A stretch of DNA of 53,973 nucleotides from Pseudofrankia saprophytica. Its GTDB lineage: Bacteria; Actinomycetota; Actinomycetes; Frankiales; Frankiaceae. Each line of letters opens with the position of its first letter. Position 1 is the first letter of the stretch. Made by a program: the position numbers and the translations under genes. This document shows, piece by piece, positions 5,472-51,042 of the stretch. Under the pieces are notes generated by a model. It saw only the letters and a list, made by a program, of their open reading frames with translations. It had not been told where the DNA came from and ran no database searches. The DNA lies in contig NZ_KI912267.1 in assembly GCF_000235425.2 (NCBI RefSeq), positions 171,556 through 225,528 on the forward strand, read 5' to 3'.

Positions 5472-5492
5472 AGCCACGTCGCGGACGCGGCT

Positions 5493-5540
5493 CGGCCCGC
5501 CGTTTTCGCCGCCCTTCTGGCGGTGAAATACGGCGGGCCG
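5493..5540. terminator. Bidirectional hairpin terminator between ppk1 and hup
   Basis: Long inverted repeat: CGGCCCGCCGTTTTCGCCGC pairs with GGCGGTGAAATACGGCGGGC across a five-base loop (CTTCT), with one bulge and one G-U pair. T-rich and A-rich parts inside the arms would give a partial U-tract on either strand. It lies exactly between the two convergent stop codons. Confidence 0.75.
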
Positions 5541-5564
5541 ACGCGGCCCGTTCCGGGCTAGGAG

Positions 5565-5846
5565 CTAGCCCTGCGACGAAACGCTGGACTTGAAGTCCGA
5601 GCCCGGGCGGAACTTCGGCACCACCGACGCGGGGACGTGCACCGGCTCGCCGGTCGCCGGGTTGCGCCCGGTCCGCTCGGCACGCTCCACCCGCTCGAAG
5701 ACGCCGAAACCGGTGATCGTCACCTTCTCGCCATTCGAGACGGCCTCCTGGATCGCGTGGAACACCGCGTCGACGGCCTTGGTCGCGTTCGACCGGCCGC
5801 CTTCGATCTGCTGAGCAATGGCGTCAACCAACTGGGACTTGTTCAC
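5565..5846 (-). CDS. hup: HU-family nucleoid DNA-binding protein
   Basis: Small basic histone-like protein of 93 residues that bends and compacts DNA as a dimer. It starts MNKSQLVDAIAQQ, has the VTITGFGVFERVERAERTGRNP core, and carries the DNA-gripping arm with NPATGEPVHVPAS followed by VPKFRPGSDFK. It ends shortly after the HU fold (SSVSSQG), so it is the short HU type and lacks the long Lys/Ala-rich C-terminal tail of mycobacterial HupB or Streptomyces HupS. Start ATG; GAGGT lies 7-11 bases upstream (CGGAGGTTGTTGTGAACAAG context). It is probably monocistronic: convergent with ppk1 downstream and 500 bases from leuD upstream. Confidence 0.96.
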   Translation of the reverse strand: MNKSQLVDAIAQQIEGGRSNATKAVDAVFHAIQEAVSNGEKVTITGFGVFERVERAERTGRNPATGEPVHVPASVVPKFRPGSDFKSSVSSQG

Positions 5847-6346: not shown

Positions 6347-6940
6347 TCAGACCGGCGTGGTGGTGGGCAGCCAGGACGGGCGGTCCTGCTCGAACGCCGT
6401 GATGGCGTCGGCGTGGCGCAGCGTGAGCCCGACGTCGTCGAGCCCCTCCATGAGACGCCAGCGGGTGAAGTCGTCCAGCTCGAAGGGGGCGACGATGCCG
6501 GCGCCGCGGACCTCGCGGGCGGCGAGGTCGACGGTGATCTCCGTCGCCGGGTCCGCCTCGACGGCCGCGAGCAGCGCGTCGACGGTCTCGGCCGGCAGGA
6601 CGACCGTCAGCAGGCCGTTGCCCAGCGAGTTGCCGCGGAAGATGTCGGCGAACTTCGGCGCGATGACGGCGCGGAAGCCGAAGTCCTGCAAGGCCCAGAC
6701 GGCGTGCTCACGGGAGGAGCCGGAGCCGAAGTTGGGCCCGGCCAGCAGGATCGTGGCGCCGGCATGGGCCGCGTTGTTGAGCACGAACGACGGGTCGCGG
6801 CGCCACTCTGAGAACAGGCCGGCGCCGAAGCCGGTGCGCTCGATCCGCTTGAGCCAGTCGCTGGGGATGATCTGGTCGGTGTCGACGTCGCTGCGCCGCA
6901 GCGGCACCGCCCGGCCGGTGTGCGTGGTGAACGCCTCCAT
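6347..6940 (-). CDS. leuD: 3-isopropylmalate dehydratase small subunit
   Basis: Swivel-domain subunit of the cytoplasmic LeuCD isomerase that converts 2-isopropylmalate to 3-isopropylmalate in leucine synthesis. The 197 residues show the family blocks: VDTDQIIPSDWLK near the start, GPNFGSGSSREHAVWALQDF in the middle (the substrate-recognition loop and swivel), and APKFADIFRGNSLGNGLL after it. Length is normal. Start ATG with GAAGGGAGAGCGCCC upstream (SD-like GGGAG). It lies downstream of leuC on the same strand but is separated from it by about 386 bases filled by a repeat element, which is unusual because leuC and leuD normally almost touch. Confidence 0.96.
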   Translation of the reverse strand: MEAFTTHTGRAVPLRRSDVDTDQIIPSDWLKRIERTGFGAGLFSEWRRDPSFVLNNAAHAGATILLAGPNFGSGSSREHAVWALQDFGFRAVIAPKFADIFRGNSLGNGLLTVVLPAETVDALLAAVEADPATEITVDLAAREVRGAGIVAPFELDDFTRWRLMEGLDDVGLTLRHADAITAFEQDRPSWLPTTTPV

Positions 6941-7010
6941 CGGGCGCTCTCCCTTCTGAGACGAGGTTCGAGAGGTTGTTCAGGTCGTGACCTTCAGCGG
7001 CGGGTGACCG

Positions 7011-7323
7011 TGCGGGCGCGGAGGCGCCTCGCGGAGGCCCGACCCACGAGCGAAGCGACGTGCTCCGGACAAGACCCGCTGTGGCTTGGTGACGTGAAGT
7101 TGGTGGGTGACCCCGCGGCGCGGAGGCGCGCCTCGCGGAGGCCCGGCCCACGAGCGAAGCGAGGTGGGCCGGGCCGCAGCGAGGTCGCCGCAGCGCCCGT
7201 GAGCGCAGGAGGACGGCGCGCGGAGGTCCCGTGGGAGCGACGGGGTCCCTGCGGAATCGGCGAAGCCGATTTCGGAGGTCGTGAGTACGGGGCCGGAGCG
7301 CGCCGCCCGCACGGAGCGAACCA
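7011..7323 (+). repeat. Modular GCGAAGC-hairpin repeat, copy A (leuC-leuD gap)
   Basis: Occupies nearly the whole spacer between leuC and leuD, reading on the plus strand. It contains two unit copies: GGCGCGGAGGCG-type GC hairpins followed by CCCACGAGCGAAGCGACGTG (first) and GGCCCAC-GAGCGAAGCGAG-GTGGGCC (7145-7170, second). A tail with CGCGCGGAGGTCCCGTGGGA and the end CGCACGGAGCGAACCA follows. The tail holds AATCGGC-GAA-GCCGATT, another perfect C-GAA-G hairpin, where the other copies have AGCGAAGCGA. The same architecture recurs at 50409-50693 (inverted) and 50756-51042. The element ends 3 bases from the leuC stop codon. Confidence 0.85.
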
Positions 7324-7326
7324 ATG

Positions 7327-8724
7327 TCAGAGATCGGCGGGAGCGGAGAGCCGGCCGGTGACGGCGGTCGCGGCCGCGACCTCGGGCGAGACCAGGTGGG
7401 TCCGGCCGCCCTGCCCCTGCCGGCCCTCGAAGTTGCGGTTCGAGGTCGACGCGCTGCGCTCACCCGGCTTGAGCGTGTCCGGGTTCATCCCGAGGCACAT
7501 CGAGCAGCCCGCGCTGCGCCATTCGGCCCCGGCGGCGCGGAACACCTCGTCCAGGCCCTCCGCCTCGGCGTCGGCCTTGACCTGCATGGAGCCGGGAACG
7601 ACGAGCGCCCGCACGCCGTCGGCGACCTTGCGACCCCGCAGAATGTCGGCGGCGGCGCGCAGGTCGGAAAGCCGGCCGTTCGTGCACGAGCCGATGAACA
7701 CCGTGTCGACCGCGATCTCACGCAACGGAGTGCCCGCGGTCAGGCCCATGTAGACCAGCGCGCGCTCGGCGGCGGCCCGGACGCCGGGGTCGGCGAACGC
7801 CGCCGGGTCCGGCACGGAGGCGCCCAGCGGAGCACCCTGACCCGGGTTGGTCCCCCAGGTGACGAACGGCGTGAGCGTGCTCGCGTCGATGACCACCTCG
7901 CTGTCGAACACCGCGTCCTCGTCGGTCGCCAGCGTCTTCCAGTAGGCGACCGCCGCATCCCAGTCGACGCCCCTGGGGGCGTGCGGGCGGCCCTTCAGGA
8001 ACTCGAACGTCGTCTCGTCGGGAGCGATCATGCCCGCCCGGGCGCCGGCCTCGATGGACATGTTGCAGACCGTCATCCGGCCTTCCATCGACAGCGACCG
8101 GATCGCCTCGCCCCGGTACTCCAGGACGTAGCCCTGGCCGCCCCCGGTCCCGATCTCGGCGATGATCGCCAGGATCAGGTCCTTCGCGCTGACGCCGTCG
8201 GGCAGCGCGCCGTCGACCGTGATCGCCATCGTCTTCGGGCGGCCCTGCGGCAGCGTCTGGGTGGCCAGCACATGCTCGACCTGGCTCGTGCCGATGCCGA
8301 ACGCGAGCGCCCCGAACGCGCCGTGCGTGGCGGTGTGGCTGTCGCCGCAGACGACCGTCATGCCCGGCTGGGTCAGGCCCAGCTGCGGGCCCACGACGTG
8401 CACGATGCCCTGGCCGGGGTCGTTCATCGGGTGCAGCCGGACGCCGAAGTCGGCGGCGTTCTTGCGCAGCGCCTCGACCTGGGCGCGGGAGACCGGGTCC
8501 GCGATCGGCACCAGTGTGTCGGTGGTCGGGACGTTGTGGTCCTCGGTCGCGATGGTCAGGTCCGGCCGGCGGACGGGCCGGCCGGCGAGCCGCAGTGCCT
8601 CGAACGCCTGCGGCGAGGTGACCTCGTGCACGAGATGCAGGTCGATGTACAGCAGATCGGGCTCACCATCGGCACGGCGTACGACGTGCGCGTCCCAGAC
8701 CTTCTCCACGAGTGTGCGCCCCAT
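7327..8724 (-). CDS. leuC: 3-isopropylmalate dehydratase large subunit
   Basis: Aconitase-fold [4Fe-4S] subunit of LeuCD. The 465 residues begin [15 protein letters not shown] and include [25 protein letters not shown], the cluster cysteines Cys347 (FIGSCTNGR) and Cys407/Cys410 (GCSMCLGMN), then a late [17 protein letters not shown] block. The ATG at 8724 matches the family start; an open frame extends 40 codons further but is not conserved. The ribosome-binding region reads GGAGGGGTGGGCCACATG (SD GGAGG). It is divergent from the IclR gene across 180 bases, the arrangement known for NdgR control of leuCD in Streptomyces. Confidence 0.97.
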
Positions 8725-50388: not shown

Positions 50389-50408
50389 GAGATCCACGCT
50401 ATGTCTAC

Positions 50409-50693
50409 GGTTCGCTCCGTGCGGGCACGGCGCTCCGTCTCTGGTTCGCTCCGTGCGGGCACCGCGCTCCGGCCCCTCACTCGCTTCGCTCCCAAGGGAC
50501 CTCCGCGCGGTGTCCTCCTCCGCGAACGTGCGCTCCGGCGACCTCCGCTGCGGCACCCCTACGTCGCTTCGCTCGTAGGGATGCCTCCGCGGAGGCGCGC
50601 CTCCGCGCCGCACGGTCACCTTTCGCTTGACCGCGTGAGAGAGCAGGTCAGGCCTGGTCTGGTGGGCCACTTCGCTGCGCTCGTGGGGTGGCC
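50409..50693 (-). repeat. Modular GCGAAGC-hairpin repeat, copy B (inverted)
   Basis: Minus-strand copy. In its own sense it has CCACCCCACGAGCGCAGCGA (variant), GTCAAGCGAAAGGTGACC, GCGGCGCGGAGGCGCGCCTC, CCCTAC-GAGCGAAGCGAC-GTAGGG (50557-50580), CGCGCGGAGGTCCCTTGGGA, and the end CGCACGGAGCGAACCA, which is duplicated (50409-50430 and 50442-50462). Loop constant, stem changed relative to A and C. It ends about 20 bases upstream of the MetE-like start codon. Confidence 0.85.
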
Positions 50694-50755: not shown

Positions 50756-51042
50756 GTCGTTTAAACGGGTAGCAAACCAAGCTGGCACTGAGGCCACCCC
50801 ACGAGCGAAGCGACGTGGCTCCATCGGGACTTGCTGTGGTTTCGCAACGTTCAAGCGGGTCGCAACCGAGCTGGCGCGGAGGCGCGCCTCCGCGGAGGCC
50901 CGGCCACCGAGCGAAGCGAAGGTGGTTGGGCCGCAGCGGAGGTCGCCGGAGCGCACGTGAGCGGAGGAGGACACGGCGCGGAGGTCCCGTGGGAGCGAAG
51001 CGAGTACGGGGCCGGAGCGCCGTGCCCGCACGGAGCGAACCA
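50756..51042 (+). repeat. Modular GCGAAGC-hairpin repeat, copy C
   Basis: Plus-strand copy with two units. Each starts with a related leader (GTTTAAACGGGTAGCAAACC, 50759; GTTCAAGCGGGTCGCAACC, 50849) and a CAAGCTGG/CGAGCTGG part. They carry CCCCAC-GAGCGAAGCGAC-GTGG (50797-50818) and CCACC-GAGCGAAGCGAA-GGTGG (50904-50925). The tail ends CGCACGGAGCGAACCA, 1 base from the mnmA stop codon, as copy A ends next to leuC. Confidence 0.85.

Follow-up and report, generated by a model that had tools for sequence, protein, structure and literature searches.

A high-copy family of mosaic palindromic repeats restricted to Pseudofrankia and often closely fitted to the ends of reading frames

The window, that is, the whole stretch of DNA analysed in this study, covers 53,973 nucleotides of the Pseudofrankia saprophytica genome (contig NZ_KI912267.1, positions 171,556 to 225,528), and the original prediction had recognized three copies of a modular intergenic repeat in it. 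All three were recovered, copy A at 7011-7323, copy B at 50409-50693 in inverted orientation and copy C at 50756-51042, and the stem sequences quoted for them around a constant GAGCGAAGCGA loop are correct in each copy and change together. Copy A is a single copy as described, but the loop of its 3' hairpin is interrupted by about 43 bases (7241-7283) with a second hairpin. Copies B and C are present, but they are not separate; together they make up a single inverted repeat, each copy forming one arm, and the whole folds into a giant hairpin. The repeats adjoin two genes of the reverse strand, which we take to be leuC (3-isopropylmalate dehydratase large subunit) and mnmA (tRNA 2-thiouridylase). 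The features are as follows.

7011-7323, forward strand: copy A, consisting of a partial upstream unit, the leader, modules P (with the GAGCGAAGCGA loop), Q and R, and the tail; RNA fold z -4.89 (100 shuffles)
7117-7323, forward strand: core of copy A, with a match of 137.6 bits to covariance model R1 over model positions 1-168
7241-7283, forward strand: insert of about 43 bases with a second hairpin (AATCGGCGAAGCCGATT), nested in the module R loop of copy A, as read from the sequence
7306-7323, forward strand: tail of copy A, CCCGCACGGAGCGAACCA, 3 bases from the leuC stop codon
7327-8844, reverse strand: presumed leuC, its stop codon adjoining copy A
50408-50425, reverse strand: second, outer tail of copy B, ending ACCG
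50442-50609, reverse strand: core of copy B, the inverted arm, matched by R1 at 174.5 bits
50409-51042: long inverted repeat formed by copies B and C, matched less well at its centre and with outward tails; DNA fold z -29.6 (20 shuffles)
50873-51042, forward strand: core of copy C, matched by R1 at 166.4 bits
51025-51042, forward strand: tail of copy C, 1 base from the mnmA stop codon
51044-52189, reverse strand: presumed mnmA, its stop codon adjoining copy C

With one mismatch allowed, GAGCGAAGCGA was found nine times in the window as compared to 2.5 expected, a number reached by none of 100 shuffles, and eight of the nine matches lay within copies A, B and C. Read on the GAGCGAAGCGA strand, a unit is composed of leader, GGCGC, module P, module Q, module R and a tail CCCGSACGGAGCGAACCR, in this order. 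CCTC(C)GC/GCG(G)AGG encloses module P, a long hairpin that carries the constant loop, and module R is a second hairpin inside a variable outer stem; the insert seen in the module R loop of copy A is also present in several other copies. The unit ends in the conserved tail (TGGTTCGCTCCGTSCGGGC / GCCCGSACGGAGCGAACCA), which closes the palindrome in paired and minimal copies, and copy B terminates in two such tails in tandem (50442-50459 and 50408-50425). The model R1 was built on 74 copies, with B and C inside the training set and A outside it. A weak model match at 5484-5615 (E 0.057) was rejected, as neither loop nor tail was seen there on inspection. Across copies the tail end is sharply conserved, and the leader side is variable in length and composition, an arrangement that would be expected of a structured non-coding RNA or a SINE-like retroelement whose 3' tail is fixed and whose 5' end is ragged. 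Such an element is very improbable here: many copies form inverted pairs that have a tail on either side, the minimal copies are palindromic, and Rfam at gathering score reported only two tRNAs in the window and no known RNA family for the repeats.

The search for further copies with a covariance model, which had been proposed with the three copies, returned many, and the family is far above three copies. With 81 candidates scored per genome, R1 matched 71 places in the genome of the window (G000) and, among seven further Pseudofrankia genomes (G001 to G007), 9 in G001, 24 in G002, 16 in G003, 41 in G004, 65 in G005 and at least 81 in G006. At the same number of scored candidates no match was obtained in G007, which belongs to the same genus, or in 27 genomes from other genera of the family. 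The tail at up to two mismatches was found at 91 sites of G000 versus 2 for a reversed-pattern control, and at up to one mismatch the counts from G000 to G007 were 86, 7, 13, 14, 41, 114, 146 and 0. With copy A as a DNA query, at least 109 pieces of its own genome matched, 40 of the 237 candidates having been scored. The R hairpin scan of named genomes, which may omit the window's own genome, gave 109 stretches, and the best 80 of these all came from Pseudofrankia asymbiotica, Pseudofrankia sp. BMG5.36, Frankia nepalensis and Frankia sp. AgB1.9. Candidates for a spread beyond the genus were rejected: a 159-base DNA query, with 20 scored candidates in each genome, gave two marginal outside matches (E 4.8e-4 and 8.1e-4), the loop pattern occurred once in 33 outside genomes, and tails at up to one mismatch numbered 9 in these 33 genomes versus 13 for the reversed control. 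In the genomes searched, the repeats are a high-copy family restricted to Pseudofrankia. The loci were collected by similarity to copy A or its tail, so copies unlike these are missed, and L049 was excluded from the counts for its overlap with L036. No description of the family was found in the titles and abstract openings of the papers found on repeats in Frankia or Pseudofrankia.

The fold was analysed in 74 distinct copies, 41 from G000 and 33 from its relatives; 182 tails had yielded 76 copies with a recognisable 5' module that passed a length filter, two odd copies of L089 were omitted, and copies with inserts are under-represented in the resulting alignment. In 44 stem pairs, 98.9% of the cells were paired as compared to 91.4% after shuffling and 35-47% in slid controls, a comparison which favours the structure because the structure was derived from the same sequences. 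Both sides had changed in 16 of the 44 pairs, with 222 such cells versus 66 in the shuffles, and none of 500 shuffles was as high on each of five measures, although related copies can exceed shuffles even without structure. The covariation first noticed in three copies therefore stands above the shuffled and slid controls in 74. The GAGCGAAGCGA strand was predicted to be the better folder in all 74 copies, both as RNA and as DNA, with a mean advantage of 17.4 and 6.8 kcal/mol, respectively. Its predicted fold is a rod of short GC stems and symmetric purine internal loops, in which GGAG segments lie unpaired opposite each other, with GA-GCGAAGC-GA hairpin caps. The loop can be replaced with the fold kept, as in GAGCCGCCAGGCGA on a different stem.

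Selection on a folded RNA or single-stranded DNA had been suggested from the compensatory changes. The stems do covary and one strand is the better folder, as this would require, but the covariation could partly come from hairpin-templated mutation. In quasi-palindrome template switching, which an excerpt of PMC3820800 describes in yeast, one arm of the folded strand would template the correction of the other, and matched stems would arise without selection on any RNA or single-stranded DNA function. Several observations are consistent with this process. Both sides of one module P base pair are present in 41 copies and both are absent in 33, with no discordant copy among the 74; the triplets of the R outer stem differ blockwise on both sides, and few mismatched chimeras break that stem; and at the L003 site of G005, a perfect palindrome with a convergent stop codon on either side bears the same change in both arms. 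The block differences, however, can be inherited from single events, since the copies are related alleles. Template switching should also be strand-neutral, yet G.T pairs occupied 230 cells and A.C pairs 14 (59 versus 14 without the commonest type of each pair), as counted on the structure predicted for that same strand, and the symmetric GGAG internal loops remain unpaired on one strand. We consider it unlikely that templated correction without selection accounts for the covariation.

The position of the repeats relative to genes was an unexpected feature of the family. When 71 outermost tails were classed by the better-scoring flanking frame, using crude GC-based gene calls, 44 faced the end of a gene, and 29 of these 44 had a stop codon (TGA, TAA and TAG all occurred) at a distance of 0-5 bases; the other 27 faced a gene start, which in 15 cases was no more than 28 bases away. 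Conservation extends about 10 bases beyond the tail, and stop codons inside the terminal bases of the element itself may therefore cause part of the fit. The C-termini were compared with an element-free orthologue at 15 sites, a comparison which leaves out four sites that have no such orthologue. The last residues agreed at five sites (leuC, L026, L031, L054 and L058), where the native stop was retained, and differed at ten (mnmA, L003, L013, L015, L016, L017, L018, L035, L042 and L048), given that C-termini drift anyway and that the orthologue was often from the most distant species. Three individual sites deserve mention. The G005 locus after mnmA (L084) is a mere tail remnant, whose in-frame reading would give the last residues of MnmA and a stop. 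At L012 near 3031, and at the same site of G006 (L091), the tail GGAGCGAACC-ATG could supply the next gene with a ribosome-binding site and a start codon. At the gene end that bears the element L042 in the window's genome, G005 (L122) has a hairpin unrelated to it (GGGCCATCTTCC...GGAAGATGGCCC).

According to the same crude gene calls, 54 of 57 clusters could be classified (three could not), and they lay between 25 tandem, 17 convergent and 12 divergent gene pairs, as compared to 84, 22 and 15 of 121 near gene pairs in the background. The placement is extragenic, with two clusters overlapped by a crudely called gene. The share of convergent pairs, the tails directly at stop codons and the small palindromes that G005 has at several of these gene ends (one or more of them flanked by convergent stops) would agree with 3'-end signals, i.e., bidirectional terminators or hairpins of mRNA ends that arose where they now stand after stops and were elaborated there, not mobile. 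This origin is doubtful in our judgement. Twelve clusters lie between divergent genes and 27 of the 71 outer tails face a gene start; no intrinsic terminator with a hairpin and a U tract was found at 6900-7400 around copy A, where a U-less one might still exist; and near-identical sequence at unrelated loci requires copying.

Comparison among the genomes bears on the history of the copies. At the leuC/leuD site, the element is present in four of the eight Pseudofrankia genomes and missing from the other four, and it starts right after the stop codon. In the closest species, G006, 21 flanks comprised 17 full sites and 4 scored as none, the latter class including L015 and L054 despite altered tail-like sequence there. 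The 21 flanks in G005 comprised 6 full and 8 minimal sites and 7 scored as none, and the 16 flanks matched in G004 comprised 2 full sites and 14 scored as none. A site counted as minimal if a tail lay no more than 90 bases away and the loop word was absent up to 400 bases away, so that not every one is a full palindrome; these sites contain little besides tail sequence. The leuC and mnmA trees conflict, one placing G005 and the other G000 nearer to G006 (with support of only 0.655 for the branch in mnmA), and do not polarise growth from minimal to full copies; the minimal ones may be ancestral or reduced. On contig C1 of G000, only one of 42 clusters lies in the 3.4 Mb between 3.0 and 6.4 Mb, as compared to 17 expected by length, with boundaries set after the map was seen. 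Together with this near-gap, the sharing of most examined sites with G006 gives little sign of recent movement, and the mostly shared sites speak for old insertions that were reshaped later. Nested tails and nested inserts were seen in copies. Within the element at L046, a unit of about 80 bases was seen by eye to be repeated head to tail about four times (1800-2130). A second repeated word like GCAACAACCTTCYGCCCCGACCC often follows the tail at L013, L014, L016, L020, L022 and L046, and it is possibly another module or family.

A REP-type Y1 transposase had been proposed as the mobilising partner, and this part of the prediction was not supported: PF01797 is absent from the genome of the window and from the six other repeat-bearing genomes, which argues against a present-day RAYT. 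The sole PF01797 match among the eight genomes of the genus (G007:C610:9267-9632) lies in the genome without repeats. In the repeat-bearing genomes no mobilising gene was found, PF01797 being the only family searched. A gene carried between outward tails was considered as well; the 1.5-kb pair in L021 encloses, by eye, a cellular-looking gene, and no transposase was seen between the outward tail pairs at L021 (from its genes, by eye) and L046 (from its sequence). No clean target-site duplication was visible by eye at the junctions, where the intergenic sequence is too diverged.

The Pseudofrankia repeat resembles the REP, BIME and REPIN elements that are associated with RAYT (TnpA-REP) in being a high-copy extragenic palindrome that forms mosaic arrays of either orientation, has a tetranucleotide at its GC hairpin foot and shows a strand-specific fold, which is predicted here. 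It differs from them in having GGAG where REPs have GTAG, in modules of about 170 bases in a fixed order with hairpins nested in loops and a conserved tail, and in the missing PF01797 gene in seven repeat-bearing genomes. Some enterobacterial REPs carry a GCGaaGC loop (table in PMC2817692), and an excerpt of PMC12306157 places 446 of 4,072 E. coli REPs no more than 15 bases from a stop codon; REPs with this loop and REPs near stop codons are the nearest parallels. The CGTC REPs, said in an excerpt of PMC3733652 to have no dedicated transposase, may serve as a precedent for a repeat family of this kind; their tag is different and their size smaller, REPs being described in the same excerpt as small (20-40 bp). 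MITEs are likewise non-autonomous and have inverted-repeat ends, which in the paired and minimal copies here consist of the tail and about 10 further, more weakly conserved bases. For the Pseudofrankia repeat, no parent transposase was seen at L021 and L046, and no clear target-site duplication at the junctions inspected by eye.

Taken together, we consider it moderately probable that the family is a REP/BIME-like mosaic palindrome, restricted to the genus, extragenic, non-autonomous and formerly mobile. Its copies would have spread with the help of a trans-acting enzyme that recognised the folded strand; in the genomes searched this enzyme would not be a PF01797 Y1 transposase, and it may have been lost or may belong to another family. 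The elements would have gained complexity as hairpins nested in loops and tails, and they would now be mostly inherited in place, surviving outside coding sequence. A strong hairpin set directly after a stop codon might, as with REPs, affect termination, mRNA decay or translation. A bolder reading, to which we give little weight, would make these repeats a novel extragenic class whose spreading enzyme has no relation to the known REP transposases. Such elements would target the boundaries of reading frames (right after stops and just before starts) and grow by insertion of hairpins into the loops or tails of earlier hairpins, with the paired arms kept matched.

Two features are worth experiments, the fit to the ends of reading frames and the joint change of paired arms. 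The family is REP-like and occurs in a high-GC actinobacterial genus without a Y1 transposase to explain its spread, and with seven species carrying many or few copies and one carrying none, gain, loss and growth can be observed directly. Because its copies fit stop codons so closely, and because a whole base pair is gained or lost jointly on both sides, the family lends itself to tests of two general questions: what spreads orphan palindromic repeats, and what share of stem covariation comes from selection and what share from hairpin-templated mutation.
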